A stretch of DNA of 52,611 bases. Origin: a virus. The notes under the pieces were generated by a model. That model worked only from the letters and a program-made list of their open reading frames with translations, did not search any database and had not been told where the DNA came from. The position numbers were made by a program, and so were the translations under genes. Numbering within the stretch: position 1 is the first letter of the stretch; the number at the start of each line of letters is the position of its first letter. The stretch is from IMG/VR virus record IMGVR_UViG_3300046660_000329, positions 1 through 52,611 of that record. One strand, written 5' to 3'. Below are positions 12,077 through 51,968 of this stretch, piece after piece.

Positions 12077-12087
12077 GGAGAATTGAC

Positions 12088-18847: not shown

Positions 18848-18849
18848 AT
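18816..18849 (+). promoter_or_regulatory. Phage promoter, TTGTCG-N18-TAGGGT
   Basis: TTGTCG (18816-18821), 18 bases, TAGGGT (18840-18845), followed by AGAT. It overlaps the end of the resolvase gene; -10 lacks the TG extension. Drives the HTH gene at 18893. Confidence 0.7.
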
Positions 18850-18892
18850 AAGACCACCGCGACGCCGCGCCCCCATACTCAGGAGACATCTT

Positions 18893-19156
18893 ATGACGAC
18901 AGCCCCTAGCGAAGAGAGTGTTTGGCACGAAAAGCGCAGTCGCCAACACCATCTGTACCCCGGACAGCGCCAGGCTCTTCAGCTCTACGCCCGGGGATTG
19001 AAGTACAGCGAGATCGCGGAAGAAATGGGCCTCGCCATCGGCACGGCTCGTTCCTACGTCGGAGCGGCGGTCACGGTGCTGGGGGCCGACAATCCGACGC
19101 ACGCTGTCGAGCTGGCCATCGAGCGCGGCGAGATCGAACCAGCCGACAACAGCTGA
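18893..19156 (+). CDS. LuxR-type helix-turn-helix DNA-binding protein
   Basis: 87 residues, CAGGAGAC before ATG. Residues 24-80 (YPGQRQALQLYARGLKYSEI, AEEMGLAIGTARSYVGAAV, LGADNPTHAVELA) follow the four-helix LuxR/GerE domain: RQALQLYARGLKYSEIAEEM is the helix-turn-helix with the recognition helix IGTARSYV. There is no receiver or ligand domain. It stands as a single-gene unit between its own promoter and a strong terminator, fit for an autonomous regulator of phage or host genes. Confidence 0.8.
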   Translation: MTTAPSEESVWHEKRSRQHHLYPGQRQALQLYARGLKYSEIAEEMGLAIGTARSYVGAAVTVLGADNPTHAVELAIERGEIEPADNS

Positions 19157-19174
19157 TCTGAACAACTTCCGCGA

Positions 19175-19208
19175 GGGAGGCACCGGATGATCCGGTGCCT
19201 CCCTTTTT
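19175..19208 (+). terminator. Strong intrinsic terminator after HTH gene
   Basis: GGGAGGCACCGGA (19175-19187), loop TGA, TCCGGTGCCTCCC (19191-19203), then TTTTT. A 13-base perfect stem. The following gap to 19376 holds only a promoter-like element. Confidence 0.9.
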
Positions 19209-28989: not shown

Positions 28990-29004
28990 TGCTAGGGTAG
29001 ATCT
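28990..29004 (+). promoter_or_regulatory. Phage promoter giving a leaderless mRNA
   Basis: TGCTAGGGTAGATCT with TAGGGT at 28993-28998 and ATG at 29005, six bases after the -10. Transcription should start at or within one or two bases of the ATG. Confidence 0.65.
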
Positions 29005-29205
29005 ATGACGAAGCGACCGATCATCCGCTGGGAACGCAAGACCCGCCCCGGCAGCATCTACGGACCGTTCACGGTGTTCCGCGCCAGCAAGACCGGCGGG
29101 CCACTGCTCAAGGAGGAGGCCCACGGCATCAAGGACGTCAACGGGTTCATGATCCAGACGAAGACCCGCAAGCTCCTGGTGGAGTTTCGGCGCCGGGGCA
29201 ACTAA
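29005..29205 (+). CDS. Small basic protein, leaderless
   Basis: 66 residues, highly basic (MTKRPIIRWERKTRPGSIYG, TKTRKLLVEFRRRGN). The ATG follows the -10 box by six bases, no ribosome site exists, so translation is expected from a leaderless transcript, which actinobacteria handle well. Single-gene unit ending in a terminator at 29209. May bind nucleic acid; unknown family. Confidence 0.6.
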   Translation: MTKRPIIRWERKTRPGSIYGPFTVFRASKTGGPLLKEEAHGIKDVNGFMIQTKTRKLLVEFRRRGN

Positions 29206-29238: not shown

Positions 29239-29260
29239 CTGCTAGGGTAGATATATCAAG
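29221..29260 (+). promoter_or_regulatory. Phage promoter TTGCAA-N16-TAGGGT
   Basis: TTGCAA (29221-29226), 16 bases, TAGGGT (29243-29248) with TGC extension and AGATATATCAAG. The UTR then shows GGACACCGCCCCCGAGGAG, the element shared with right-arm cassettes. Confidence 0.75.
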
Positions 29261-29289: not shown

Positions 29290-29592
29290 GTGAAGCACCG
29301 TAAGCCGAGCATCAGCCTGTTCGAAACGGAAGACCACATCTTCCAGCGAATCAGCAACACGGCGTGGGCGTATGGGACCGCCGACCAGCTGTTCGAGGGC
29401 GATTACGTCCTCACCTCGGAGCAGTATTACGAGTACCTGGACGGCCAGTACGAATGGGAGCCGGAGCAGCACGTGGCCCGCAACTTCGGGGACTGTGGCG
29501 CCCCCATCACCGGCACCGGGGACTACGAGCAGATGATGGCCGAGGAAGCCCGAGCACACTTTTACGGCGCCCCCAACCCCTACCTGATCTGA
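29290..29592 (+). CDS. Acidic protein of unknown function
   Basis: 100 residues from GTG 29290 with CGAGGAGACC before it. Glu/Asp and Tyr-rich (EDHIFQRISNTAWAYG, LTSEQYYEYLDGQYEWEPE), no cysteine motif other than one FGDCG. Acidic Tyr-rich small proteins can mimic DNA, but no evidence beyond composition. First gene of a three-gene unit (29290-30185). Confidence 0.55.
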   Translation: MKHRKPSISLFETEDHIFQRISNTAWAYGTADQLFEGDYVLTSEQYYEYLDGQYEWEPEQHVARNFGDCGAPITGTGDYEQMMAEEARAHFYGAPNPYLI

Positions 29593-29601
29593 GGAGAATC
29601 C

Positions 29602-29832
29602 GTGCCCAACGACTACGCCAACGCCTCTGGCGAGGTCTCCGAGGACTACTACGACATCGCCACCTGGAACAACCGGGAACACGAGTGGGAGTTGAACGGC
29701 TACTTCCTCACCCTGGAAGAGGGCCGCAAGCGTCTGGCCGCCAAGCGCGGCAGCATCCGAACTACCAAGCGCAACGCGGATTTCCGCCTGGTCCGGGTCC
29801 AGGCCACCACCACCCTCACCGAAGTCGACTAG
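29602..29832 (+). CDS. Small protein of unknown function
   Basis: 76 residues from GTG 29602 with GAGGAGAATCC. Begins acidic (NDYANASGEVSEDYYDIATW) then YFLTLEEGRKRLAAKRGSIR and ends TTTLTEVD. A strand-helix-strand pattern with basic middle. Co-transcribed with the genes on both sides. No family recognised. Confidence 0.55.
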   Translation: MPNDYANASGEVSEDYYDIATWNNREHEWELNGYFLTLEEGRKRLAAKRGSIRTTKRNADFRLVRVQATTTLTEVD

Positions 29833-42150: not shown

Positions 42151-42426
42151 TCAGCGGTTGCGCGGGTAGTCCTCCATCAGAACCGCCCACCGGGCCACCA
42201 TGTTGGAACCCTCGGGGCCGATCACGGCGTTGGCGGGGACACCGTTCGCGTAGCACTCCGCTACAAAGTCGGTGACCGCGTCCAGCGTCGGGGCACCTGC
42301 CATGGGACGTACAAACGTCTTGGGGCGCATCGGGTGGATGTTCTGATATTGGGCAGCCACTTTCGGGTCCAGGCGGGGCAAGGGGTCCTCCAGGGCAGAC
42401 AAGATGGGCGACAGGTTCTCGGACAT
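42151..42426 (-). CDS. Minus-strand small protein, leaderless
   Basis: 91 residues, ATG at 42426. Sequence MSENLSPILSALEDPLPRLD, PKTFVRPMAGAPTLDAVTDF, and AVIGPEGSNMVARWAVLMED. No recognised family; the protein has an orderly helix-strand pattern. The start lies six bases after a TAGCGG -10 (minus strand), the same distance as for the gene at 29005, so it should be leaderless. Ends 39 bases from the bidirectional terminator. Confidence 0.6.
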   Translation of the reverse strand: MSENLSPILSALEDPLPRLDPKVAAQYQNIHPMRPKTFVRPMAGAPTLDAVTDFVAECYANGVPANAVIGPEGSNMVARWAVLMEDYPRNR

Positions 42427-42441
42427 AATCTACCGCTATCC
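42427..42441 (-). promoter_or_regulatory. Minus-strand phage promoter, leaderless type
   Basis: On the minus strand GGATAGCGGTAGATT then ATG: TAGCGG at 42438-42433 followed by the conserved TAGAT part and a six-base gap to the start. It is a variant of TGCTAGGGTAGATCT at 28990. Confidence 0.5.
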
Positions 42442-42517
42442 GTTGCGAAAATCCCACCCGGTATCGGCCAAAGAGATATGCTCCACAATGGTTGAGTCGC
42501 CTGCTTCAACCGCTCCA

Positions 42518-42562
42518 ACCGCAGCCCCTGACGTCTCATCTCGTCGGGGGCTGCGGTGTTTT
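42518..42562 (+). terminator. Hairpin with T-run ahead of HTH gene
   Basis: ACCGCAGCCCC (42518-42528) and GGGGCTGCGGT (42547-42557), then GTTTT. It isolates the unit at 42605 from upstream. A minor ORF here (42404-42610) is judged non-coding. Confidence 0.7.
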
Positions 42563-42604
42563 CACCCCGGCTACCGCTGTAACGGTATCTCTACCCTCCA
42601 GATA

Positions 42605-42622
42605 TGCTAGGGTAGAGATACC
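42605..42622 (+). promoter_or_regulatory. Phage promoter TGCTAGGGTAGAGAT
   Basis: TGC and TAGGGT (42608-42613), AGAGATACC. Drives the double HTH gene. Confidence 0.65.
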
Positions 42623-42643
42623 ATCGTTATCAGGGGGCTACCA

Positions 42644-43060
42644 GTGGCATTCCGGGACGACCTCCGCCCACGCGGAGAAGACCATCACAAAGCAGTCCTG
42701 ACCTGGGCAAAAGTCAGGGCCATCCGCACCAGATACGCGCAGACCCGCGAAAGCGTCCAAGGCATCGCAGACGACTACAGGGTCTGCCGCAGCACCGTAC
42801 GCGCCCTCCTGGAAGGCAAAACATGGAAAGATCCGGAGTACACCCCACCTGACCCCCCAGGGGCCAACAAGGGGGAACGGGCCCACACCGCAGTACTCAC
42901 CCTGGACCGGGCCAAGGAGATCCGGGTGAGATACGCAGCAGGCGGGACATCCATGGAAAAGATCAGCCACGAGTACGGCGTCAGCGTCATGACGATTCAC
43001 CGGGTCATCTGGAACAAATGCTGGAAAGACCCTCAGTACACCCCACCGCTCAACCGCTGA
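42644..43060 (+). CDS. Tandem helix-turn-helix protein
   Basis: 138 residues from GTG 42644 with AGGGGG upstream. Two repeats of about 60 residues: residues 15-66 (KAVLTWAKVRAIRTRYAQ, IADDYRVCRSTVRALLEG, TWKDPEYTPP) and 82-134 (TAVLTLDRAKEIRVRYAAGG, ISHEYGVSVMTIHRVIWN, CWKDPQYTPP). Each is an HTH of the type seen at 20385. The linker PDPPGANKGER connects them. It resembles the DNA-binding part of homing HNH proteins without nuclease. May bind a repeated operator, possibly the phage promoters; inference. Confidence 0.7.
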   Translation: MAFRDDLRPRGEDHHKAVLTWAKVRAIRTRYAQTRESVQGIADDYRVCRSTVRALLEGKTWKDPEYTPPDPPGANKGERAHTAVLTLDRAKEIRVRYAAGGTSMEKISHEYGVSVMTIHRVIWNKCWKDPQYTPPLNR

Positions 43061-43067
43061 AACGCCA

Positions 43068-43098
43068 CGACCCCCGACAGATACATCGTCGGGGGTCG
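43068..43098. terminator. Bidirectional terminator
   Basis: CGACCCCCGAC (43068-43078), loop AGATACATC, GTCGGGGGTCG (43088-43098), perfect 11 pairs. It stands between the plus HTH gene and the minus operon 43114-43649. Confidence 0.75.
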
Positions 43099-43113
43099 CG
43101 GTGCGTCTGGGTC

Positions 43114-43293
43114 TCAGGTATCCGGACTCTCCAGCCCGTCCCGGATGTACGCCTCCACCGCCCGCAGCTCATCATGAGACGACAGCTCCATCGACGCCTC
43201 CCTCCCGTTCAAAGACAGCATCAGGATCGGGTTCTTCCCCTGCCCGAACACCGCCATCGCAGCCCACGCCCGGATCTGCTGATCATCCGTCAC
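43114..43293 (-). CDS. Minus-strand 59-residue protein
   Basis: GTG start at 43293, overlapping the stop of the upstream minus-strand gene (GTGA). Product MTDDQQIRAWAAMAVFGQGK, NPILMLSLNGREASMELSS and HDELRAVEAYIRDGLESPDT: an amphipathic helix, two strands, helix. The single-base-level coupling and regular pattern support coding. Function unknown; acts with the gene before it. Confidence 0.6.
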   Translation of the reverse strand: MTDDQQIRAWAAMAVFGQGKNPILMLSLNGREASMELSSHDELRAVEAYIRDGLESPDT

Positions 43294-44000: not shown

Positions 44001-45815
44001 ATGGGTCAGACGATCAATCAGCACACCGAACAGGACCCGCAGACACTCGCTACCGGGACGCTCGACACCGGCTATCTGTCCTCGGTCAACGGTGTCCTGT
44101 GTGTCCAGGCGATGAAGACCGTTGAAGTAGACGGCAAAGAGAAGCGGGTGGAAGTCCCGGAGGAGTACGCCAACTTTGACATCAAAGCCCGTGCGGTCAT
44201 CCGAGACGACACCACCAGTACATGGGACGTCCGGTTCACCCGCAAAGCAGACGGGGCGCCCATCGACGACCTCGTACCCGCTGCCGTCCTCACCGACCGC
44301 CGCAAGACCGAAGCGTGGCTGGCAAACCACGAACTGACGTGCGGAGACCCCATCGGTATCCGGGGACGCTTCCAGCCGGGACAGCGGATCATGCGCTACC
44401 TGATTCACCAGAAGCCCAAGCCCGCGAAGATCGTGCGGCAGCTCGGCTACCACGACCATCTCCGGATGTTCCTCACCCCCAAGGGCGTGATCATCCCCGG
44501 AGAGATCGACTTCGACAACGCGCTGCCGTACCTGCCCGCTTGCAAGCTGGACAAGACGAACCCGCTGCCGTTCTCGTTCGGGTTCTCCCACCGTGGCGTC
44601 GGCGAGGTGCGGGAAGTCCTCGCGGAAGTCCTCGGGTTCCATGATGAGACCGCTACCGCTCTGTTCGCCTCATGGTCCGTTATGTCCCTCATCCAGTCCG
44701 CTCTGATGAGCTACGTGGACCACTTCCCGGTGTTCGCGGTGGAAGCACCGTCAGGTACCGGCAAGACGACCGGCGCCCTGTCCATGCTGGCTGAGCTGCT
44801 CACCGGCTACAGCATGGGAGAGTCCCAGACGACGCTTCCGGTGACCCGGGATCTCATCGCCTCCACATGGTCCGGCTTCATCCACACAGACGACCTGGAT
44901 GACCCCAAGCGCCTGTTTGAGCTGTTGCGTCTGTCGACGGCGAAGGGCACCGCCGGTAAGAAGGTCCCGGGTGCTACGGGTGCGTTCGGCAGCAACGGTC
45001 TGATCCAGCTGACGGGTTCCATGTACATCACGGGCGAGTACCTGGGGATGAACGAGGAGAAGGCTCTTCTGGACCGTGTGGTGAAGATCGGTCTGACGTC
45101 GCCGGTGGACCGCAAATCTCTCCGTCCGGGCCGTGAGCACGTGTCGCAGGGACGCGATTTGAAGGAGATGCAGCGGAGGTATCCCCGGGAGTGGGGTGGT
45201 CTGGCTGCGATTTCGGCCACGGTGATTTCCGAGGTTCTTCTGTATGTGGACCGGCTGTGTGAGCTGGTTGATCTTCTGAGGCCTTCCAGTGGTCGTGCGG
45301 GAGACAAGTACGCCGTGCTGCTCGCGGGGGCACGCATGGTGGACTGCCTGCTCGGTGACACCTACGCCTGGAATGGCGAGGGCATGACAAGCCAGCGGGT
45401 GCAGACCTGGGTGAACGGAGAACTCAACACCACCAGCTTCGACGGGGACAACAAGCTGACGCTCAAGGTGATCCCGGAGATCCTGGCGCTCGGCCTCCGC
45501 CCGGGGGAGTCGTTCAAGGGCGTCAAGATTGAATACCCGCCGTGCGGGTTCCACCGTCACGCCCGCAGCGGAGAGGTCCGGCTGTTTTTCCAGGACAACC
45601 TGCTCCCGCTGTTCTGGGAGGTGTTCAAGGGCGGTCACAACGTGGACAAGCGGACCGAGTCGGCATCGTCGCTGCGGGGGCAGGCCGAGGGTATGGGGTT
45701 CATCAAGAGCCAGCAGATCATCATCGAGGGGGTCAACCGACGGGTGTGGGTCGCTCCGCCGGAGGTGACGGAGACGATGCTCCAGCGGGTCCCTGATAGC
45801 ACCGTGTACGGCTAG
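44001..45815 (+). CDS. Primase/helicase-type P-loop ATPase (DUF927-like)
   Basis: 604 residues from ATG 44001. The N-terminal 200 residues are beta-rich (DIKARAVIRDDTTSTWDVRF) and probably bind DNA; Walker A EAPSGTGKTTG has Lys255; WSGFIHTDDLDD provides acidic Walker B and arginine-finger region AGKKVPGATG; the C-terminus ends with a winged-helix-like part (LFFQDNLLPLFWEVFKGG, SSLRGQAEGMGFIKSQQ). The layout resembles DUF927 and D5-like primase-helicases that load at phage origins. The iteron array begins two bases after the stop, which supports an origin-related role. Confidence 0.75.
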   Translation: MGQTINQHTEQDPQTLATGTLDTGYLSSVNGVLCVQAMKTVEVDGKEKRVEVPEEYANFDIKARAVIRDDTTSTWDVRFTRKADGAPIDDLVPAAVLTDRRKTEAWLANHELTCGDPIGIRGRFQPGQRIMRYLIHQKPKPAKIVRQLGYHDHLRMFLTPKGVIIPGEIDFDNALPYLPACKLDKTNPLPFSFGFSHRGVGEVREVLAEVLGFHDETATALFASWSVMSLIQSALMSYVDHFPVFAVEAPSGTGKTTGALSMLAELLTGYSMGESQTTLPVTRDLIASTWSGFIHTDDLDDPKRLFELLRLSTAKGTAGKKVPGATGAFGSNGLIQLTGSMYITGEYLGMNEEKALLDRVVKIGLTSPVDRKSLRPGREHVSQGRDLKEMQRRYPREWGGLAAISATVISEVLLYVDRLCELVDLLRPSSGRAGDKYAVLLAGARMVDCLLGDTYAWNGEGMTSQRVQTWVNGELNTTSFDGDNKLTLKVIPEILALGLRPGESFKGVKIEYPPCGFHRHARSGEVRLFFQDNLLPLFWEVFKGGHNVDKRTESASSLRGQAEGMGFIKSQQIIIEGVNRRVWVAPPEVTETMLQRVPDSTVYG

Positions 45816-45817
45816 AA

Positions 45818-46094
45818 CTGCTAGGCGGTACTGCTAGCGGCACTGCTAGAGCAAGAATGTGAGAGGCTATCACCTCCGAGGGGGGAAGTGATAGCCTCTC
45901 ACGCTTTTCCAGTTCTAGCAGGAGCGCTAGCAGTACCCGTAGCACCAAAGACACCCCCTCTGATCAGGCATATAGCAGTTCTAGCAGTTCTAGCAGTAAT
46001 TTTTAGCCTTACGCGCGTACTCTCCTCCGTTCCTGTCTTGGGGGGTCTATCTCACTATGGGGCTCACGTTTCCGAAATCACTGCTAGTTGCTAG
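45818..46094. other. Probable replication origin with CTGCTAG iterons
   Basis: CTGCTAG at 45818, 45831, 45843 (starts 13 and 12 bases apart), then a perfect 15-base inverted repeat GTGAGAGGCTATCAC/GTGATAGCCTCTCAC (45859-45902), then CTAGCAG at 45915, 45927, and, with ATAGCAG at 45972, at 45981 and 45990 (nine bases apart), followed by AATTTTTAG, and CTGCTAG at 46081 with TTGCTAG at 46088. About ten iterons in two orientations around a central hairpin and an AT-rich part, next to a primase/helicase gene. The stretch up to 46470 has no credible gene. Confidence 0.75.
45859..45902. repeat. 15-bp perfect inverted repeat inside origin
   Basis: GTGAGAGGCTATCAC (45859-45873), 14-base loop, GTGATAGCCTCTCAC (45888-45902), then GCTTTTCC. 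May double as the helicase terminator. Confidence 0.75.
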
Positions 46095-46174
46095 ACGATC
46101 ATGGACTCAGTACAAAAACAGGGCATGACAGCCTGCTCAGTGCACACCCGTACACCACTACTAGGGCTTGAAAC

Positions 46175-46368: not shown

Positions 46369-46405
46369 GCCGGGTGTCCTTGTATCTGGGGGCATCCGGC
46401 TTTTT
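46369..46405 (+). terminator. Terminator at the edge of the cassette array
   Basis: GCCGGGTG (46369-46376) and CATCCGGC (46393-46400), 8 pairs with one G-T, then TTTTTG. Followed within 20 bases by the first cassette promoter. Confidence 0.75.
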
Positions 46406-46419
46406 GTTGTCTCCGGGTG

Positions 46420-46439
46420 TGGTAGGGTAGATATATCAA
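46420..46439 (+). promoter_or_regulatory. Cassette promoter TGGTAGGGTAGATATATCA
   Basis: TGG and TAGGGT (46423-46428), AGATATATCAAG and GGACACACCGATCCGAGGAG in the leader. No clear -35 at 18 bases. Confidence 0.7.
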
Positions 46440-46470
46440 GTCACGGACACACCGATCCGAGGAGAGTTCC

Positions 46471-46860
46471 ATGGACACCCAGTACACCGAGCAGGCCCTC
46501 ATGAACCTCGGCTTCCTCCCCGTCACCCGGAACAACGGGATCACCTACGGCGGCTTCGAGGTCACCCGGGAGGACAACGGCGACTCCAGGATCGTCTACG
46601 TGCTCGCCACCGGAGCCGACCGCTTTTCCACCGAGGTGCGCCGGGCCACCGTAGGCAGCTACATCAGCCGGATGGAGCGGGAACTCTCCCGTAAGGGCTG
46701 GAAGGTCACGATGTTCGAGCCGGACACCGGCACGGACTTCTGGCTCCGGGTTCAGGCGGAGGACACCGCTTACCAGCTCCCCGGGGAGACGGAGGAGGCC
46801 TATACCGAGCGCATGGATACTGCGTCCGACCGTGCTGCCTGGGCTGCTCAGGACCGGTAG
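46471..46860 (+). CDS. Protein of unknown function, cassette 1 first gene
   Basis: 129 residues with CGAGGAGAG before ATG. Starts MDTQYTEQALMNLGFLPVTR and has ITYGGFEVTREDNGDSRIVY, then RATVGSYISRMERELSRKGW (amphipathic helix) and an acidic end EETEEAYTERMD-like (actual PGETEEAYTERMDTASDRAA). Alpha-beta protein without recognised family. Confidence 0.55.
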   Translation: MDTQYTEQALMNLGFLPVTRNNGITYGGFEVTREDNGDSRIVYVLATGADRFSTEVRRATVGSYISRMERELSRKGWKVTMFEPDTGTDFWLRVQAEDTAYQLPGETEEAYTERMDTASDRAAWAAQDR

Positions 46861-46883
46861 ATCCTTCTGAAGGGGGAGCAGCG

Positions 46884-47102
46884 GTGAAGCGACAGACGGT
46901 CAAGGCGGCGCGTACCCGGCTCCGGTGGATCGCGTATCAGGTGGGCTGTCACGGTGTCCTGGAGATGCGGTACAGCCTGGTAGCGGGTTTCTCGGGGCAG
47001 ACCCGGGTGACGGAGCGGACGGGTTCGAGCGGTGTGGTGGTGGTGCCGTGGAAGCATCCGGCGTACTGGAATCCGGATGGTACGGAGATTCCGGATCTTT
47101 GA
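46884..47102 (+). CDS. Small basic protein, cassette 1 second gene
   Basis: 72 residues from GTG 46884, AGGGGGAGCAGCG upstream. Arg/Lys-rich start (MKRQTVKAARTRLRWIAYQV), then beta-rich with SSGVVVVPWKHPAYW. A basic N-terminus may bind nucleic acid. One unit with 46471. No terminator hairpin of the standard type follows; GGGGTTGCATCCCC at 47133-47146 is a small stem holding the next -35. Confidence 0.5.
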   Translation: MKRQTVKAARTRLRWIAYQVGCHGVLEMRYSLVAGFSGQTRVTERTGSSGVVVVPWKHPAYWNPDGTEIPDL

Positions 47103-47135
47103 TCGGGGAGCAGCGGGGGTGTGACCCACAAGGGG

Positions 47136-47176
47136 TTGCATCCCCGCTTCCTCATGTGCTAGTGTAGATACATCAG
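47136..47176 (+). promoter_or_regulatory. Cassette promoter TTGCAT-N18-TAGTGT
   Basis: TTGCAT (47136-47141), 18 bases, TAGTGT (47160-47165) with TGC, AGATACATCAG. TTGCAT lies in the small hairpin GGGG-TTGCAT-CCCC. Confidence 0.8.
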
Positions 47177-47207
47177 AACACGGAGACACCACACCGAGGA
47201 GATTCCG

Positions 47208-47456
47208 ATGATCGAGACCACCGAGACCGGCACCTTTGAGACCGTGAAGCTCCGCCAGCTCCAGAAGGGCGACACCTTCAGCGTCAAGCTCCACGGGCAG
47301 TACGCCTGGGGGGACAAGGTCATCCAGGGTGTTCTGGTCGGCGGTTACACGGTCGTCGGGAACGCCACCAAGTGGCACATCGTGATCCAGCTGGAGACGG
47401 GCAAGCGGATCACGCGGCAGATCCACCCGAACCACCCGGTTCGCCGGTACATCTGA
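47208..47456 (+). CDS. Small protein, paralogue of the 49014 C-terminal half
   Basis: 82 residues, CGAGGAG before ATG. FETVKLRQLQKGDTFSVKL, GQYAWGDKVIQGVLVGGY, WHIVIQLETGKRITRQI and final HPVRRYI: a small beta-barrel-like domain. The 49014 protein has FETVEIDEIKAGDEISFKD and PVRRYL at its end, so they share a module. Cassette with its own promoter and terminator. Function unknown. Confidence 0.6.
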   Translation: MIETTETGTFETVKLRQLQKGDTFSVKLHGQYAWGDKVIQGVLVGGYTVVGNATKWHIVIQLETGKRITRQIHPNHPVRRYI

Positions 47457-47472
47457 GGGAGCGGTACACCAG

Positions 47473-47503
47473 AGCCCTCCGGAGAGATCCGGGGGGCTTT
47501 TTC
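47473..47503 (+). terminator. Cassette terminator (AGCCCTCCGGA type)
   Basis: AGCCCTCCGGA (47473-47483), GAGA, TCCGGGGGGCT (47488-47498), TTTTTC. GTACACC precedes it as in the other cassettes. Confidence 0.88.
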
Positions 47504-47514
47504 TTTGTCAGGGG

Positions 47515-47553
47515 TTGTATCTACCCTAGTACTCGTGTAGAGTATGAGTATCA
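47515..47553 (+). promoter_or_regulatory. Cassette promoter TTGTAT-N17-TAGAGT
   Basis: TTGTAT (47515-47520), 17 bases, TAGAGT (47538-47543), then ATGAGTATCAG. The region TATCTACCCTAGTA (47518-47531) is the reverse complement of a TACTAGGGTAGATA promoter core, so a minus-strand promoter may overlap. Confidence 0.65.
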
Positions 47554-47582
47554 GCAAGGGACACCAAACCTAGGAGACTCTG

Positions 47583-47792
47583 ATGTTCTTCAACCTCCCC
47601 GACCTCGGCACCGACGAAAAGTACCTGATCCAGGGTGGCGGCCACTACAACTCCTCCAGCGCCTCGGCTTACACCGTGAAGGCCGCCCGGGAAGCGTTCA
47701 AGAGCATGAGGAGCCAGTACTCCTCAGCCACGATCACTATCGTCAACACGACTACCGGCGTTGGACGGATCGTGAAGTCCTGGGAGCGCTGA
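47583..47792 (+). CDS. Small protein, cassette gene
   Basis: 69 residues with TAGGAGACTCTG before ATG. MFFNLPDLGTDEKYLIQGGG, YNSSSASAYTVKAAREAFKS, YSSATITIVNTTTGVGRIVK: strand, helix, strand-strand. Size and pattern like small anti-host proteins but no motif. Single-gene cassette. Confidence 0.58.
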   Translation: MFFNLPDLGTDEKYLIQGGGHYNSSSASAYTVKAAREAFKSMRSQYSSATITIVNTTTGVGRIVKSWER

Positions 47793-47812
47793 ACCCCTGC
47801 TGATACACCGAG

Positions 47813-47841
47813 AGCCCTCCGGAGAGATCCGGAGGGCTTTT
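47813..47841 (+). terminator. Cassette terminator
   Basis: AGCCCTCCGGA (47813-47823), GAGA, TCCGGAGGGCT (47828-47838), TTT; 11 perfect pairs. GATACACCGAG precedes. Confidence 0.9.
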
Positions 47842-47844
47842 GTG

Positions 47845-47884
47845 TTGTCTGGGCGCAGCAGAATGTGCTAGTGTAGATATATCA
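47845..47884 (+). promoter_or_regulatory. Cassette promoter TTGTCT-N18-TAGTGT
   Basis: TTGTCT (47845-47850), 18 bases, TAGTGT (47869-47874) with TGC, AGATATATCAG. Confidence 0.8.
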
Positions 47885-47911
47885 GTAAGGGACACCACGA
47901 AGGAGACCCCG

Positions 47912-48157
47912 ATGAACGCCGCCAAGACCGTCGCCACGGCCCTCATTGCCGCCACCGCCATCACCGGCCTCACTGCCTGCGACCCCGGCACCGAGCCCAC
48001 CGGAATCGTCACCAGCCGCGCCGGAGGCAACCCCATGGCCGGTAAGGGCGCTACCCTCCTGATCACCGCGAAGGACGGCAAGACCGCCCACGTGACCATC
48101 CCGGCCGGTGTGTACGAGAGCTGCCACGTCGGATCTCAGTACCCCAAGTGCAAGTGA
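47912..48157 (+). CDS. Small lipoprotein, cassette gene
   Basis: 81 residues from ATG 47912 with AAGGAGACC upstream. Signal MNAAKTVATALIAATAITG then lipobox LTAC (Cys23). The mature part is about 58 residues (DPGTEPTGIVTSRAGGNPM, LLITAKDGKTAHVTIPAG, two Cys at VYESCHVGSQYPKCK). It should sit on the outer face of the host membrane. A superinfection-exclusion or cell-surface role is inferred. Second lipoprotein of the window (see 41388). Confidence 0.72.
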   Translation: MNAAKTVATALIAATAITGLTACDPGTEPTGIVTSRAGGNPMAGKGATLLITAKDGKTAHVTIPAGVYESCHVGSQYPKCK

Positions 48158-48178
48158 ACCCCTGCTGATACACCGAGA

Positions 48179-48206
48179 AGCCTCCGGGAAACTCCGGGGG
48201 CTTTTT
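48179..48206 (+). terminator. Cassette terminator
   Basis: AGCCTCCGG (48179-48187), GAAACT loop, CCGGGGGCT (48194-48202 with one G-T), TTTTT. Confidence 0.85.
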
Positions 48207-48218
48207 CGTTGTCAGGGG

Positions 48219-48257
48219 TTGTATCTACCCTCTCACTCGTGCTACTATTTATCTATC
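48219..48257 (+). promoter_or_regulatory. Cassette promoter TTGTAT-N18-TACTAT
   Basis: TTGTAT (48219-48224), 18 bases, TACTAT (48243-48248) with TGC, TTATCTATCAG. TATCTACCCT (48222-48231) again contains the inverse of GGGTAGATA. Confidence 0.65.
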
Positions 48258-48288
48258 AGCAAGGGACACCACCACCAGGGAGACCCAA

Positions 48289-48534
48289 ATGTTCCGGAAC
48301 CTCTTTTCCGCCAAGACCAATCAGGAGCAGTACGGCACCCCGTGGCTGATCACCTCCCACGACGGCTCCGAGCACCGCCCCTTCGACTCCTCGGAGAACC
48401 TGCTGGAGCTGCTGGACTACCTCTGCCCCACCCCGGAGCGCCCCGTCACCCTGGCCCACGAGAAGACCACCCTGGTGGCCACCGAGTACTCCCAGGCCGT
48501 GCGCTTCATCTACGCCCACGCGCTGTACTCCTGA
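48289..48534 (+). CDS. Small protein, cassette gene
   Basis: 81 residues, GGGAGACC before ATG. MFRNLFSAKTNQEQYGTPWL, SEHRPFDSSENLLELLDYLC, and TLVATEYSQAVRFIYAHALY. Acidic-helical with strand start. No family recognised. Single-gene cassette. Confidence 0.58.
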   Translation: MFRNLFSAKTNQEQYGTPWLITSHDGSEHRPFDSSENLLELLDYLCPTPERPVTLAHEKTTLVATEYSQAVRFIYAHALYS

Positions 48535-48551
48535 TCACTCCGAGCACACCG

Positions 48552-48579
48552 AGCCCTCCGGGAAACCGGGGGGCTTTCT
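48552..48579 (+). terminator. Cassette terminator with GAAA loop
   Basis: AGCCCTCCGG (48552-48561), GAAA, CCGGGGGGCT (48566-48575), TTCT. Confidence 0.85.
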
Positions 48580-48590
48580 GCTGCGCCCTG

Positions 48591-48631
48591 TTGCACACCG
48601 TCTACTCGATGTGCTAGGGTAGATATATCAA
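48591..48631 (+). promoter_or_regulatory. Cassette promoter TTGCAC-N18-TAGGGT
   Basis: TTGCAC (48591-48596), 18 bases, TAGGGT (48615-48620) with TGC, AGATATATCAAG. Confidence 0.85.
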
Positions 48632-48659
48632 GACGGCGCACCACACCGAGGAGAGCCCC

Positions 48660-48911
48660 ATGTCGAACACCACCGGCCTCACCGTCACCCGCGAGATCCG
48701 TGGCGGCACCGCCCACTGGATCCACATCACCGGCCCGATCGCCCTGGACCGCAACGCCCCCCGTAAGGCCGGTGCAGCTGCTCGCCAGTGGGCGCGGGAC
48801 CTCGGCAAGGGCCGGGCGTACCGGGTGTCCGGTGGCGGCTCCTACAACTGCGACGAGTCGGGCGGCCAGGGTACTTTCCGCTACAGCGTCTGCTACGGGT
48901 TCGAAGGCTGA
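48660..48911 (+). CDS. Small protein, cassette gene
   Basis: 83 residues, CGAGGAGAG before ATG. Beta-rich: GLTVTREIRGGTAHWIHITG, then an Arg-rich helix (RKAGAAARQWARDLGKGRA) and YNCDESGGQGTFRYSVCYG with two cysteines. No family recognised. Single-gene cassette. Confidence 0.58.
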   Translation: MSNTTGLTVTREIRGGTAHWIHITGPIALDRNAPRKAGAAARQWARDLGKGRAYRVSGGGSYNCDESGGQGTFRYSVCYGFEG

Positions 48912-48922
48912 TCGGGGCGTAG

Positions 48923-48960
48923 CGAGAGGGTCACGGCCTACGGGTTGTGGCCCTTTCTCG
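48923..48960 (+). terminator. Terminator overlapping next promoter
   Basis: GGGTCAC (48928-48934) with GTGGCCC (48947-48953), one G-T, and an outer CGAGA/TCTCG pair with a TT bulge. The loop contains the start of TTGTGG, the next -35. Confidence 0.6.
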
Positions 48961-48984
48961 TATGTGCTAGTGTAGATATATCAA
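48945..48984 (+). promoter_or_regulatory. Cassette promoter TTGTGG-N17-TAGTGT
   Basis: TTGTGG (48945-48950), 17 bases, TAGTGT (48968-48973) with TGC, AGATATATCAA. The leader has ACACCACACCGAGGAG. Confidence 0.75.
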
Positions 48985-49013
48985 CCGGGAACACCACACC
49001 GAGGAGAACCCCG

Positions 49014-49454
49014 ATGCTCACCTCCGCGCAGATCGACCAGGCCATCAGCACCCGCGCACTCGTCCGCATCTCCGACACCCACGGGTGGGCACCGGGAGTC
49101 ACCGGCATCGCCATGGGATTCCGCCCCAACTACGGCACCATCAAGATCGGATTCGTAGACGGAAACGGCAAGTACACCGGAGAGTTCACCGTCGTCTCCT
49201 ACAAGAGCGTCGAGCTGGTCGAACCGATGATCATGGAAGAGTTCGAAACCGTCGAGATCGACGAGATCAAGGCGGGCGACGAGATCAGCTTCAAGGATCT
49301 CTACGAACAGCGTTACATCCGGGGCACCGTCACCGAGATCACGGCCTCCCGCGACGGCTACAAGGACCCCTTCATCCCCTCCGTACGCAAGGCCAACGGA
49401 TTCAGCACCCACCCCGAGATCTCCCCCGGCACGCCCGTACGCCGCTACCTCTGA
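49014..49454 (+). CDS. Two-module protein, cassette gene
   Basis: 146 residues, CGAGGAGAACCCCG before ATG. Residues 1-70 are a beta-rich domain (ALVRISDTHGWAPGVTGIAM, IKIGFVDGNGKYTGEFTVV), residues 73-146 (FETVEIDEIKAGDEISFKD to PVRRYL) repeat the module of the 47208 protein. Possibly a fusion of an additional domain with the common small module. Function unknown. Confidence 0.6.
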   Translation: MLTSAQIDQAISTRALVRISDTHGWAPGVTGIAMGFRPNYGTIKIGFVDGNGKYTGEFTVVSYKSVELVEPMIMEEFETVEIDEIKAGDEISFKDLYEQRYIRGTVTEITASRDGYKDPFIPSVRKANGFSTHPEISPGTPVRRYL

Positions 49455-49471
49455 TCCACCCGCAACACCAG

Positions 49472-49498
49472 GGGCGCAGTCACACCGGCTGCGCCCCA
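49472..49498 (+). repeat. GGGGCGCAG/CTGCGCCCC hairpin, copy 1
   Basis: GGGGCGCAG (49472-49480), nine-base loop, CTGCGCCCC (49490-49498). Followed after 9 bases by CATTCAGGAGACACC and ATG. The same arrangement recurs at 49851. May be a terminator with leaky read-through or an mRNA stabiliser. Confidence 0.65.
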
Positions 49499-49517
49499 CA
49501 ACCATTCAGGAGACACC

Positions 49518-49829
49518 ATGCGCACCGTCCGCATCACCACCCGCACCCTCGAACCCACCCTCACCCGGGACAAGCGGATCCGCGTCCGTTCCGCAGACGG
49601 CACCGTCGCCGACTACCCCTGGGACCACCGGTACGACGCACCCGAGGCACACCAGGAAGCTGCCCGCAAAGTCGCCGTGATGGAGAACCCCAACCAGGAG
49701 ATCACCATGCAGCGCACGGGATCCGACGCCATGGGATACACCTTCCGCGCGATCATCGGCCGAGCCGAAGCGGTGGACCGGATCCGCCAGGGCAACGCCG
49801 AAACCCTGGGCAGGCTGAAGGACCAGTAA
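49518..49829 (+). CDS. Protein of unknown function
   Basis: 103 residues, CAGGAGACACC before ATG. Arg/Thr-rich start (MRTVRITTRTLEPTLTRDKR), helical PEAHQEAARKVAVMENPNQE, and beta part TMQRTGSDAMGYTFRAIIGR with end QGNAETLGRLKDQ. No phage promoter is seen between it and 49014; it probably is read through the hairpin at 49472. Confidence 0.55.
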   Translation: MRTVRITTRTLEPTLTRDKRIRVRSADGTVADYPWDHRYDAPEAHQEAARKVAVMENPNQEITMQRTGSDAMGYTFRAIIGRAEAVDRIRQGNAETLGRLKDQ

Positions 49830-49850
49830 GCGGGGGACGGCTGACACCAC

Positions 49851-49880
49851 GGGGCGCAGCCGCTACACCAGCTGCGCCCC
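49851..49880 (+). repeat. GGGGCGCAG/CTGCGCCCC hairpin, copy 2
   Basis: GGGGCGCAG (49851-49859), 12-base loop, CTGCGCCCC (49872-49880), then CATTCAGGAGACACCG and ATG 49903. Same stem as copy 1 but a different loop, so the stem is conserved. Confidence 0.65.
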
Positions 49881-49902
49881 CTTGATCATTCAGGAGACAC
49901 CG

Positions 49903-50163
49903 ATGGAACGCCCCCTCACACCCCTCATGCACACCGCCCTCGAACAGATCCGGGGAGGCGGCGAAAACTACCGCTACGGCCCGATCACACCCTCCCTGAA
50001 CCGCCCCACACCCGTGAAGCCGTCCGACCTCACACCAGTCATCTCCGGCGGCCTCCAGTGGCGCACCGTCGCCGCCCTCGAACGCCGGGGCCTCGTCGAG
50101 CTGGTCCCGTACACACCGACCACCGGACGCGTCGTAGCCGTACCCCAGGAGGACACCGAATGA
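49903..50163 (+). CDS. Small protein with winged-helix-like segment
   Basis: 86 residues, CAGGAGACACCG before ATG. MERPLTPLMHTALEQIRGGG, then ISGGLQWRTVAALERRGLVE and LVPYTPTTGRVVAV: helix, helix-turn-helix-like QWRTVAALERRGLVEL and a beta wing. Suggests a small transcription factor of MarR or phage type; moderate. Overlaps next start by four bases. Confidence 0.6.
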   Translation: MERPLTPLMHTALEQIRGGGENYRYGPITPSLNRPTPVKPSDLTPVISGGLQWRTVAALERRGLVELVPYTPTTGRVVAVPQEDTE

Positions 50164-50324
50164 GCTGGCTCAAGCGGATACACCGCCGATGGCGGGCAAT
50201 CGTGCTGCACGCGGTACTCCTGGAAACGACGGAGCTATCCGGCGGCTGCCAGTGCACCGGCTGGGACGGCTGCCCCAGCCCCTCCGCCTGCGGTACACCC
50301 TACGGCTGCTACTGCGGCGCCTGA
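50160..50324 (+). CDS. 54-residue cysteine-rich protein
   Basis: ATG 50160, overlapping the previous stop (ATGA). Basic helix MSWLKRIHRRWRAIVLHAVL then TELSGGCQCTGWDGCPSPSA and CGTPYGCYCGA: six cysteines in the last 30 residues, which could form disulphides or a metal cluster. Translationally coupled to the winged-helix gene. Function unknown. Confidence 0.58.
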   Translation: MSWLKRIHRRWRAIVLHAVLLETTELSGGCQCTGWDGCPSPSACGTPYGCYCGA

Positions 50325-50343
50325 ACACACCAGGAGACCACCG

Positions 50344-50550
50344 ATGAGCAGTGAAATCCGCCGCCTGGAGATCACCTACACCACCGCCGACACCGACAAG
50401 CAGCACGCCCGGGGTCTGTCGGTATGGGAGCAGATGAGCCACGACGAGATCAGCGAAGACCTCGCAGGCGCCCTGAACCAGGCTCTGAAGACCTGGTACG
50501 CCCGGGTAGGACACCGGTACCTGGCATGCGAGCCGGAAGGGTTCGCGTAA
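50344..50550 (+). CDS. Small protein of unknown function
   Basis: 68 residues with CAGGAGACCACCG before ATG. MSSEIRRLEITYTTADTDKQ, then EQMSHDEISEDLAGALNQAL and end RYLACEPEGFA. A strand and an acidic helix. Ends the four-gene string 49518-50550 that lies behind the promoter at 48945. Confidence 0.55.
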   Translation: MSSEIRRLEITYTTADTDKQHARGLSVWEQMSHDEISEDLAGALNQALKTWYARVGHRYLACEPEGFA

Positions 50551-50557
50551 CACCACT

Positions 50558-50590
50558 GGACGGCTTACAGCGGGTGTAGTCTGGCCGTCC
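50558..50590 (+). terminator. Hairpin after the four-gene string
   Basis: GGACGGC (50558-50564) and GCCGTCC (50584-50590), then TCCCTCTC. A 19-base loop. First of two hairpins. Confidence 0.55.
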
Positions 50591-50619
50591 TCCCTCTCGG
50601 GGCGGATGGATTGATCACG

Positions 50620-50673
50620 GAAAAGAGTCTCTCCGGTTGGGCCTAGGAACTCACGGCCGGAGGGGCTCTTTTC
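50620..50673 (+). terminator. Long-stem terminator
   Basis: GAAAAGAGTCTCTCCGG (50620-50636) with CCGGAGGGGCTCTTTTC (50657-50673), 17 pairs with two G-T, 20-base loop, ending in TTTTC. Thirteen bases before the next promoter. Confidence 0.8.
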
Positions 50674-50685
50674 TGCTGTCCGGGG

Positions 50686-50725
50686 TTGTGTCGGCACACC
50701 GAGGCATGCTAGGGTAGATATATCA
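50686..50725 (+). promoter_or_regulatory. Cassette promoter TTGTGT-N18-TAGGGT
   Basis: TTGTGT (50686-50691), 18 bases, TAGGGT (50710-50715) with TGC, AGATATATCAAG. Confidence 0.85.
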
Positions 50726-50751
50726 AGCCGGACACCACCAGGGAGACCGAA

Positions 50752-50943
50752 ATGATCGAGACGCCCATCCTCAACGACATGATCAACACCCCGGCGGAGT
50801 GCGACCTCGGATACGACGGCTGCGAGGGAACGGCGACGCAGTACATCGACCACCCGACCGGAGAGGCGCTGGGAGAGGACACCTGGGGCATGGTCTGGGT
50901 ATGCGACGGGCCGTGTGCGTACCAGGCGGCGCGGGAGTCCTGA
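50752..50943 (+). CDS. Small protein with four cysteines, cassette gene
   Basis: 63 residues, GGGAGACCG before ATG. CDLGYDGCEG and VCDGPCAY give CxxxxxxC and CxxxC pairs around the acidic core, likely one zinc. Acidic overall (PTGEALGEDTWGMVWV). Similar Cys layouts occur in zinc-binding phage proteins of unknown role. Single-gene cassette. Confidence 0.6.
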   Translation: MIETPILNDMINTPAECDLGYDGCEGTATQYIDHPTGEALGEDTWGMVWVCDGPCAYQAARES

Positions 50944-50963
50944 TCAACCCGATACACCAAGAG

Positions 50964-50989
50964 CCCTCCGGAAAACCCCGGAGGGTTTT
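50964..50989 (+). terminator. Cassette terminator
   Basis: CCCTCCGG (50964-50971), loop AAAACC, CCGGAGGG (50978-50985), TTTTC. GATACACC precedes. Confidence 0.88.
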
Positions 50990-51002
50990 CTCGTGCCCGG
51001 GA

Positions 51003-51042
51003 TTGCACACCGCCGGTTCGACATGCTAGGGTAGATACATCA
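51003..51042 (+). promoter_or_regulatory. Cassette promoter TTGCAC-N18-TAGGGT
   Basis: TTGCAC (51003-51008), 18 bases, TAGGGT (51027-51032) with TGC, AGATACATCAG. Confidence 0.85.
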
Positions 51043-51073
51043 GCAAGGGACACCACCACCGAGGAGACCCAAA

Positions 51074-51268
51074 ATGACCACCACCCTCACCGCCATCGCC
51101 GCCGGTAACGCCATCGCCCGGGTCCGTATCATCCTGGACAAGCTCGGAGCCTCCTACACCGTGCAGCCCGGCCTGTACCAGTCGAAGATCGCCGTGAACG
51201 CCGCGTCGACCCTTCAGGCGAAGATCGTCCGAGCCAAGCTGAGCCAGATCGTTCTGGTCGCTGGCTGA
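51074..51268 (+). CDS. Small protein, cassette gene
   Basis: 64 residues with CGAGGAGACCC before ATG. MTTTLTAIAAGNAIARVRII, LDKLGASYTVQPGLYQSKIA, VNAASTLQAKIVRAKLSQIV: an alpha-beta pattern with repeated Ala helices and no cysteine. Could be a small ferredoxin-like fold. Single-gene cassette. Function unknown. Confidence 0.58.
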   Translation: MTTTLTAIAAGNAIARVRIILDKLGASYTVQPGLYQSKIAVNAASTLQAKIVRAKLSQIVLVAG

Positions 51269-51281
51269 CCCTGATACGCCA

Positions 51282-51310
51282 AGCCCCCTGGGAAATCCCG
51301 GGGGGCTTTT
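51282..51310 (+). terminator. Cassette terminator
   Basis: AGCCCCCTGGG (51282-51292), AAAT, CCCGGGGGGCT (51297-51307, one G-T), TTTT. GATACGCC precedes. Confidence 0.88.
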
Positions 51311-51313
51311 GTG

Positions 51314-51353
51314 TTGCTGCGCCCAAGTCTGATGTGCTAGGGTAGATACACCA
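51314..51353 (+). promoter_or_regulatory. Cassette promoter TTGCTG-N18-TAGGGT
   Basis: TTGCTG (51314-51319), 18 bases, TAGGGT (51338-51343) with TGC, AGATACACCAG. Last promoter of the array in this window. Confidence 0.82.
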
Positions 51354-51382
51354 GAAGGAAACACCACACCGAGGAGATTCCC

Positions 51383-51757
51383 GTGACCACGAACTACATC
51401 GAAGCCCCCGCCGGAGCCCTCGGCAAGGACATCCCCGCCAACTACCTGATCAAGGTCGGCGGCAAGGAGACCCTCACCACCGGAACCGTCCAGAGCGTCC
51501 GCCGCGTCGGTGAGATGAAGATCGAAGTCACCCTCAAGCACCGCAAAACCGGAGAAATCCACACCAACATCCTGGACGCCCGCCAGACCGTCCACGTATG
51601 GGCGATCTTCCTCCAGGACAGCTACACCCAGGAAGTCCAGAACGGGCTCCCCTGGGACGGTGTAGGCGAAATCTGGACCGAGGGCCTGGTGAAGCAGCTG
51701 CGAGACCGCCTGAAGTCGAACATGTGGACGTTCTCGGGTATGCCGATCGAAGCCTGA
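51383..51757 (+). CDS. Protein of unknown function, cassette gene
   Basis: 124 residues from GTG 51383 with CGAGGAG before it. Residues 20-75 beta-rich (YLIKVGGKETLTTGTVQSVR, MKIEVTLKHRKTGEIHTNIL), then an aromatic part (AIFLQDSYTQEVQNGLPWDG) and helix GLVKQLRDRLKSNMWTF. No family recognised. Followed by a terminator-like hairpin and then a tight string of small genes. Confidence 0.58.
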   Translation: MTTNYIEAPAGALGKDIPANYLIKVGGKETLTTGTVQSVRRVGEMKIEVTLKHRKTGEIHTNILDARQTVHVWAIFLQDSYTQEVQNGLPWDGVGEIWTEGLVKQLRDRLKSNMWTFSGMPIEA

Positions 51758-51772
51758 TACACCCCGCCGCGC

Positions 51773-51796
51773 CCCCCAGGGACCTCCTGGGGGCTT
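51773..51796 (+). terminator. Weak cassette terminator
   Basis: CCCCCAGG (51773-51780), GACCT, CCTGGGGG (51786-51793), CTTC. No T-run of four. GATACACC lies just before it, as in the other cassettes. Confidence 0.6.
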
Positions 51797-51818
51797 CCCG
51801 CTACCACCAGGACACACC

Positions 51819-51968
51819 GTGACCGCACGGGCAACCCTTCACTACGCCTCCATCCGCCTGTACCGCCTACGCCTTTTCCACGGCCGGTGGTACCCCACCA
51901 CGTACGAACAGCCCCTGCATGGCCGCCCCTACGGCGCAGTCAAGCTCACCCGGGAGAAACGCCGATGA
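51819..51968 (+). CDS. 49-residue basic protein
   Basis: GTG 51819 with ACCAGGACACACC before it. Product MTARATLHYASIRLYRLRLF, HGRWYPTTYEQPLHGRPYGA, VKLTREKRR: Arg/Tyr-rich. Stop overlaps the next ATG (ATGA), which supports translation. Function unknown. Confidence 0.5.
   Translation: MTARATLHYASIRLYRLRLFHGRWYPTTYEQPLHGRPYGAVKLTREKRR

Follow-up and report, generated by a model that had tools for sequence, protein, structure and literature searches.

A 52,611-nucleotide stretch of viral DNA (IMG/VR record IMGVR_UViG_3300046660_000329, positions 1 to 52,611), here called the window, carries at its right end an array of repeated promoter-like flanks around small open reading frames (ORFs). Ten such flanks, eight near-perfect and two degenerate, lie between positions 46,420 and 51,383, and the ORFs behind them, all on the + strand, start at 46471, 47208, 47583, 47912, 48289, 48660, 49014, 50752, 51074 and 51383. 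We propose, with a probability of roughly 0.7, that standardised flanks recur throughout the genome, that this array forms their right-end part and that in it they act as gene sockets, and that the AGGGTAGATA part of their promoters is a presumed operator. Positions refer to the window unless another record is named.

The window is a single IMG/VR record and not a whole genome. Together with the IMG/VR contig G006 it forms a circle of 128,608 bp through identical 127-bp ends at both junctions: its last 127 bases are the first 127 of G006, and its first 127 bases are the last 127 of G006. The junction between the end of G006 and the start of the window is spanned by contig G005 at >99.9% identity, while for the other the evidence is the 127 shared bases. 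A length of 127 bases is typical of an assembler overlap, and the shared ends suggest a circularly permuted or terminally redundant phage. Contig G011 (124,939 bp) is syntenic with the circle; long matches are mostly 80–88% identical, and the primases share 55% amino acid identity. Further relatives are G003, G009 and smaller pieces. Before counting, the near-duplicates G002, G004, G005 and G008, most of G007 (a duplicate of G010) and low-scoring gene calls were removed; genes were called with our own simple caller, not a published one.

The first unit of the array has its promoter core at 46420–46438 and contains ORF A (129 aa, 46471–46860) and, as second gene, ORF B (72 aa, 46884–47102). The promoter of C (47136–47175) consists of TTGCAT, 18 nt, TAGTGT and AGATACATCA, its -35 lying inside the hairpin 3′ of B; ORF C (82 aa, 47208–47456) is followed by a terminator-like hairpin of the AGCCCTCCGG type (47471–47500). 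In the promoter of D (47515–47552) the -35 is an inverted copy, TTGTATCTACCCT, of the AGGGTAGATA half-site, the -10 is TAGAGT and the normal copy is degenerate; ORF D (69 aa, 47583–47792) precedes a terminator-like hairpin, AGCCCTCCGG/CCGGAGGGCT, with TTTT (47809–47842). ORF E (81 aa, 47912–48157) has its promoter core at 47866–47884. The promoter of F (48219–48257) again combines the inverted half-site TTGTATCTACCCT with a degenerate normal copy, around a -10 of TACTAT, and is followed by ORF F (81 aa, 48289–48534). The whole intergenic flank between F and G (hairpin, promoter and leader) occupies 48535–48659 and includes the promoter core of G (48612–48630; ORF G, 83 aa, 48660–48911). A core at 48965–48983 heads ORF H (146 aa, 49014–49454) and ORFs I (49518–49829), J (49903–50163), K (50160–50324, read by eye) and L (50344–50550), the last four without motif promoters of their own. 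The array ends with ORF M (63 aa, 50752–50943; core 50707–50725), ORF N (64 aa, 51074–51268; core 51024–51042), a terminator-like hairpin 3′ of N (51281–51308) and ORF O (124 aa, 51383–51757; core 51335–51353).

A scan of both strands of the window for TGCTAGGGTAGATA with up to 3 mismatches gave 23 matches against 1.3 expected, 10 of them within 46,420–51,348 and 13 elsewhere. An initial annotation, made from the letters alone, had described ten promoters of one design with a shared leader, and both observations hold. Eight promoters have 0–1 mismatches to TAGNGTAGATAYATC; the two degenerate ones, of 47583 and 48289, have 4–5 and retain the -10 (TAGAGT, TACTAT) and ATCA. TTG stands 17–18 nt 5′ of the -10 in nine of the ten, the exception being the first (46471), where it is absent at 15–19 nt. 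All ten leaders, predicted to be 30–36 nt long, contain ACACC and a GGAG or GGGAG run, as read from the sequence output. The common 3′ end described in the same annotation stood only in part: of the ten first ORFs, four are followed by exact GATACACC and three more by near matches, while exact AGCCCTCCGG occurs on the + strand at 47473, 47813, 48552 and 50962 and the remaining units have other GC-rich hairpins. Folding placed strong stems 3′ of 10 of the 12 array stops examined, without a shuffle control. As a genome-wide signature AGCCCTCCGG was rejected, with 37 occurrences on the circle (one mismatch) against about 24 expected from composition.

The contrast between similar flanks and dissimilar ORFs is genuine yet moderate. 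In pairwise global alignments of the ten units, mean identity was 0.646 over the 85 nt 5′ of the starts (0.48 when shuffled), 0.538 over the first 240 nt of the ORFs (0.516 shuffled) and 0.554 over the 60 nt 3′ of the stops (0.488 shuffled). Two of the ORFs described as differing from each other may be related: C appears to be a paralog of the C-terminal half of H.

The motif, first noticed in the right-arm array, is found well beyond it. The circle contains 62 sites with ≤2 mismatches to TAGNGTAGATAYATC, the same promoter stands before many other non-late genes, and no site falls in the 35.6-kb late block; the motif thus looks like the common non-late promoter of the phage. When sites or inverted half-sites at ≤3 mismatches are counted, 62 circle genes lie behind one, a coincidental equality with the number of sites. 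Eight records, one of them partly scanned, hold 200 sites with ≤2 mismatches, and 170 of these, in seven records, have a same-strand start codon downstream; the other 30 are omitted from the logo. Among the 170, TTG occurs at 16–19 nt spacing at 89 sites, against 2 for a CAA control, and TGC precedes the -10 (T 0.88, G 0.96, C 0.74), both outside the search pattern. At 21 sites the start codon lies exactly on the predicted +1, which is the arrangement of leaderless actinobacterial mRNAs. As the TTG spacing and the start codons on +1 lie outside the search pattern, they support promoter function. One leaderless copy (28990–29007, + strand) places the ATG of a 66-aa ORF (29005) on the predicted +1, likewise in G011, and a perfect core outside the array (29240–29258, + strand) precedes an ORF at 29290–29592.

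Sigma70_r2 was found in none of the six phage records searched, and region-4/LuxR-like helix-turn-helix (HTH) matches were found in four of the six. A phage-specific sigma regulon was therefore set aside, since no phage-encoded sigma factor was found, and because sigma region 2 was not detected in these six records, host RNA polymerase with the housekeeping sigma is the most likely reader of the promoter. An 87-aa protein with a sigma-70 region 4/LuxR-like HTH is encoded at 18893–19156, behind a weak motif copy (18837), and has homologs in G011 and G009.

The host probably belongs to Streptomyces-like bacteria. Protein matches suggest an actinophage: of the 54 records matched by the tailspike-like protein, 49 are Streptomyces phages, and the polymerase and the primase have their best matches (40% and 33%) in the JackieB group of Streptomyces phages. 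Cultured JackieB (Streptomyces griseus) carries three TANNNTAGAT sites, at record positions 29,721, 32,171 and 35,076, all on the coding strand, against 0.3 expected. Two are leaderless exactly at annotated starts, and the third has TTG-18-TGC and a 36-nt leader. A control discriminator, AGTA, likewise has 3/3 sites near starts there and AGAT alone is not special, so that the weight of JackieB rests on the fuller match TTG-18-TGCTACTGTAGATACATC. Phage phiC31 has conserved inverted repeats and early promoters; its genome gave no motif match with ≤2 mismatches.

Searches for DNA relatives among GenBank phages gave no match for 28,001–52,611 (near relatives) or 46,380–51,820 (distant relatives). 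In IMG/VR, array ORFs A, E and H led only to contigs already known, and O to none. A 71-base promoter-leader query returned 78 records, 77 of them Vibrio phages, with 27–28-base matches and E of at least 0.6 among the matches listed, which we take as chance. Plasmid relatives sought through the DNA polymerase were also rejected (59 records, all <60% identity; the best 10 of the 59 at 22–25%). On G011, a ParA-type ATPase is encoded behind a motif promoter (42191–43162) and a phage-integrase-like recombinase at 18289–19203; with these two genes, the lineage might persist as a plasmid prophage.

Gene content varies among relatives while the flanks stay, and the modular platform proposed in the initial annotation is borne out in this respect. 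With one gene-score cut-off applied throughout, homologs in G011 exist for 6 of the 16 window-array genes and for 134 of the 161 genes not in the array (Fisher p 1.7e-4); when low-scoring array genes are kept, the array figure is 6/18 (p 1.8e-5). Where the array continues on G006, 13 of 24 genes have a G011 homolog. Among the first ORFs alone, 4/10 have one, against 36/45 same-promoter genes outside the array (p 0.018), and 6/10 have a homolog in any compared relative. ORFs D, F, M and N are homolog-free among the relatives compared, and G has a homolog (44%) in G003 only. Identity to G011 is 73% for B, 86% for E (also present in G009 and G003) and 94% for H, and O has homologs at several loci in relatives and a second copy on its own phage (31–45%). 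ORFs A, B, E, H and J are collinear in G011 with different genes interspersed. In G003, the order of array homologs in the direction of transcription is C/H, G, J, A, E, O (25–60% identity), unlike that of the window.

In the best cases the breaks fall close to start and stop codons. One nucleotide match to G011 covers B, the next promoter and its leader and then stops at the start codon of C; in G011 an unrelated ORF of 42 aa takes that place. The flank at 48535–48659 shares 90% identity over 120 nt with one in G011, while F and G are unrelated to both G011 neighbours. The promoter-to-stop block of unit A (46417–46860) recurs in G007/G010 downstream of the helicase gene, with one small gene in between (76–77% nucleotide identity), and in G003 within that contig's own array (73–74%). 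Flanks could be aligned across genomes over ≥80 nt in 198 cases. Both neighbouring ORFs are non-homologous in 167, 39 of these at ≥75% identity; both neighbours are homologous in 20, the downstream one only in 9 and the upstream one only in 2. With gene content that varies, flanks that stay and breaks so placed in the best cases, the data are best read as a modular platform.

The half-site AGGGTAGATA also occurs inverted, as TTGTATCTACCCT, where it provides the -35; in 14 of 18 cases it lies 19–21 nt 5′ of the -10. Shuffles put the chance of an inverted half-site at about 0.0009 per promoter. In a set of 87 leader-defined starts, all with ≥80 nt of intergenic space, an inverted copy accompanies 10/69 intact normal copies, 0/3 intermediate ones and 8/15 degenerate or absent ones (p 0.0026). 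Five of these last eight cases are clear promoters with a -10 and a leader (47583 and 48289 in the window, 121535 in G011, 535 and 1162 in G009). That the inverted element in the -35/spacer is commoner where the normal copy is degenerate suggests a shared operator.

Over the promoter of an HTH gene lies a perfect dyad, GGTATCTCTACCCT-N11-AGGGTAGAGATACC (42590–42632), whose arms deviate from the usual half-site in a matching way. The HTH gene itself (42644) was rejected as the regulator, as the dyad and the motif are missing before its G011 homolog. Convergent dyads, AGGGTAGATAAG...CTTATCTACCCT, whose arms are altered yet still match each other, span the promoter and leader in two phages (circle 73,270, that is, G006 near 20,790, and G011 16,323), and a similar one lies at G003 61,457. 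An operon encoding an HTH_26 protein together with a putative membrane protein is divergent from an ArdC-like gene (G006 16928–17649, G011 11809–12530). Its promoter has TATAGT or TAGAGT and ATCA, with TCACAC in place of AGATAY, which is what would be expected of a gene escaping the site and makes the operon a candidate regulatory switch.

A shared repressor-type regulator at the AGGGTAGATA element is plausible from these sequence patterns. A more specific version is that one phage-encoded regulator acts at AGGGTAGATAY of about 60 promoters, placed normally over -10/+1 or inverted over the -35/spacer, so that foreign ORFs captured between two flanks would be expressed and at the same time fall under phage-wide control; we regard this version as tentative, at somewhat less than even odds.

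The array genes themselves had been interpreted as anti-host or defence-related, and this interpretation found no backing: none of the ORFs could be assigned to a known family of that kind through Pfam or PHROGs, and PADLOC recognised 0/10 first ORFs. Matches were sub-threshold in Pfam and confined to unknown function in PHROGs. ORF E has a lipobox-like signal, read from the sequence, and looks like a small lipoprotein. The AlphaFold model of H is all-beta at low confidence (mean pLDDT 66), and it gave no solved-structure match at E ≤0.001 and three weak viral matches, from which no function followed. In G011, genes behind such promoters have ArdC-like anti-restriction, ADP-ribosylglycohydrolase, TerD, ParA, GntR-like and LuxR-like domains. 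This set makes host-interaction roles plausible but says nothing about the array ORFs.

Other repeats were seen in and near the array. Inside the H–L operon, a second repeated intercistronic element, promoterless, has copies at 49455–49517 and 49830–49902, with a similar one 5′ of G003 80633; it consists of a hairpin, GGGGCGCAG...CTGCGCCCC, followed in the window copies by CATTCAGGAGACACC. Between the primase gene and the array, 45815–46110 contains many short CTAG-containing repeats (GCTAG, TCTAGCAG). Elsewhere in the window, adjacent ORFs of 354 and 320 aa (12088–14114) with near-identical starts form an apparent tandem duplicate, with cross-matching in G011 and G005.

In the proposed mechanism, a flank would open with the terminator-like hairpin that closes the unit before it, continue with a promoter and finish with a short leader carrying ACACC and a Shine-Dalgarno run. 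The promoter would be TTG, 17–18 nt, TGn TAGnGT and AGATAY, with transcription starting at the A of AYATCA, most likely by host RNA polymerase with the housekeeping sigma. The same design would serve about 60 times, for non-late genes; promoter and terminator activity and non-late timing are what we infer from the sequence. In the array the flanks would act as sockets, an ORF between two of them being swapped for an unrelated one, with breaks at the start and stop codons, so that the incoming ORF would immediately form a unit of its own in transcription, translation and termination. The presumed means of exchange would be homologous recombination at the flanks. The AGGGTAGATA part would double as the operator of a single phage-wide regulator; its overlap with -10/+1 or the -35/spacer makes a repressor the probable kind.

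Several observations weigh against this reading of flanks as sockets under a shared operator. Expression of each gene alone, as first claimed, is clear by anatomy for seven of the ten units (C, D, E, F, G, M and N); two are operons, the promoter of A heading two ORFs and that of H (49014) five, and downstream of O (51383) come a hairpin lacking a clear T-run and then further ORFs that have no motif promoter. Among the 14 array ORFs examined in the window, a stem-plus-T search marks 7, a generic terminator scan of the region gave 6 terminator-like sites against 2.7 by chance, and a generic scan of the array region found no sigma-70 consensus promoter. The late block, taken as window 1–15.9 kb plus G006 56.4–76 kb, was delimited after the sites had been seen, and G011 has one motif site (65,694) within its own corresponding block, beside an extra primase gene. 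JackieB has three copies only and no array. Three of the eight degenerate-plus-inverted cases are without a clear -10. In addition, 9 of the 14 exact inverted sites have an adjacent base that could serve as the T of a -10 on the opposite strand, which makes a weak antisense promoter possible there. Against recombination among the flanks of one genome stands their similarity, which is 0.658 within a genome and 0.661 between genomes (85 nt). Concerted evolution within a genome is thus not seen, nor is gene conversion among flanks, and shared function alone could maintain the similarity. Most of the 167 alignments may reflect nothing but shared function, and the non-homology of short ORFs rests on blastp at E 1e-4.

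Part of this evidence would also fit a conserved 19 bp that is promoter only, a strong extended -10 with a favoured discriminator kept for high expression, with no operator and with turnover by illegitimate recombination filtered by selection for intact signals. The base at -9 is variable (G 0.85, T 0.13, A 0.02), as it would be in a -10, TTG and TG suit the housekeeping sigma, homogenisation within genomes is absent, and JackieB has its three TACTRTAGAT-type sites at gene starts without an array. However, AGATAY (-6 to -1) shows stronger conservation than is known for housekeeping discriminators, even if this is partly built into the 170 sites by the search pattern; inverted half-sites recur at 19–21 nt in 14/18 cases and are enriched at degenerate normal copies, and perfect dyads exist. 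We consider a promoter-only motif unlikely, although a serious contender. The half-site in both orientations over -10 or -35 would also suit an immunity-repressor operator of a temperate phage, stoperator- or CIR-like, that silences the genome in lysogeny, with the small HTH_26 protein as repressor. The ParA, phage-integrase-like and HTH_26 genes of G011 and the HTH operon promoter, which from -10 to +4 reads TAGAGT or TATAGT, TCACAC, ATCA, point the same way. On the other hand, a prophage and host search of 84,980 genomes found the exact motif in 0 stretches and no close relative of the polymerase, close relatives being all that the polymerase search detects, and the HTH_26 gene occurs only in G006 and G011 of 12 contigs, several of them fragmentary. 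Immunity control of this kind appears rather improbable.

Turnover itself could be illusory if the array ORFs were the same genes in all relatives, diverged past recognition, with no exchange; the ORFs are small and the reach of blastp is limited. This seems very improbable given that E and H are 86% and 94% identical to G011 within the same array, that paired ORFs are unlike in length and character (C, 82 aa, against the 42-aa hydrophobic peptide), that unit A lies near the helicase gene in G007/G010 and that array homologs are reordered in G003. The phage-integrase-like gene on G011, and cassette A matching as a unit, would be compatible with a flank that is a recombinase or transposase target, cassettes moving by integron-like site-specific recombination. 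The conserved bases, however, are those of the -35, -10, +1 and ribosome site, leaderless copies lack the leader, and a fixed crossover site at the unit ends was not noticed, no dedicated search having been made; this is the least probable of the explanations considered. Standardised flanks serving as sockets, with AGGGTAGATA as presumed operator, remain the preferred reading.

Among known systems, the host-takeover module of phage SPO1 groups small ORFs, served by numerous early promoters and terminators, close to one genome end; exchange at flanks is not known for SPO1. By function, the closest known kind is the promoter early stem-loop (PeSL) of T4-like phages, reportedly a mobile regulatory cassette (Arbiol in 2010, Comeau in 2014). 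The array likewise has an intergenic composite of hairpin, promoter and leader between ORFs, which recurs around unrelated ORFs in related phages (48535–48659; 167/198 alignments) and is dense in a hypervariable region, with ten in 5 kb. In the accessible text of two papers, PeSLs are an intergenic hairpin and an early-type promoter between small variable ORFs, credited with gene shuffling among related phages (PMC4503421, PMC3950731), and a similar motif is reported in the haloarchaeal virus HGTV-1 (PMC3950731). Unlike PeSLs, the flanks described here belong to another phage backbone and a GC-rich genome, and have a different promoter with a conserved discriminator and +1 region, leaderless versions, the ACACC leader, inverted half-sites in the -35/spacer and about 60 sites per genome. 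Descent from PeSLs was rejected, as the polymerase and primase relatives are actinophages and the promoter consensus is unlike that of T4.

Other systems share single traits with the array. T4-like early promoters number in the tens and are similar to one another (57 predicted in RB69), standing before conserved early genes and novel ORFs, with late promoters as a separate class; they have another consensus, and the available part of that paper mentions no shared operator-like half-site (PMC1524935). Cluster A mycobacteriophages have more than 20 copies of a short asymmetric site, the stoperators/operators, in promoters and intergenic spaces, many of them away from promoters and bound by a known monomeric repressor, according to the accessible part of the source (PMC9283540). 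Here, by contrast, almost every copy lies on a promoter -10/+1, and the regulator is an HTH_26 candidate only. Of the 200 sites, 170 point towards a downstream start, and inverted copies too lie at promoters. The SAS/ESAS of cluster K mycobacteriophages are, in the portion available, short conserved sequences 5′ of many genes, about half of which add an inverted repeat, conserved among relatives along with the gene family and tied to translation starts (PMC3203893); the repeat in this phage is instead a predicted promoter, and its +1 can be assigned. At title and abstract level, with subscription journals mostly outside reach, no report of such flanks in Streptomyces phages was found.

What is new is a single promoter core used genome-wide in a lineage unrelated to T4-like phages, and the inverted AGGGTAGATA element in the -35/spacer. 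If one regulator does act at all of these sites, PeSL-like shuffling would be fused to a single-operator, genome-wide switch. The motif gives an exact start-site prediction for about 60 transcripts per phage and a list of exchanged orphan ORFs, and JackieB, growing on Streptomyces griseus, is a cultured distant relative offering three similar sites. The shuffling design of T4-like phages, proposed for a haloarchaeal virus too, is thus indicated in an unrelated GC-rich actinophage lineage, and standardised intergenic sockets may be a general route by which large phages trial new genes.

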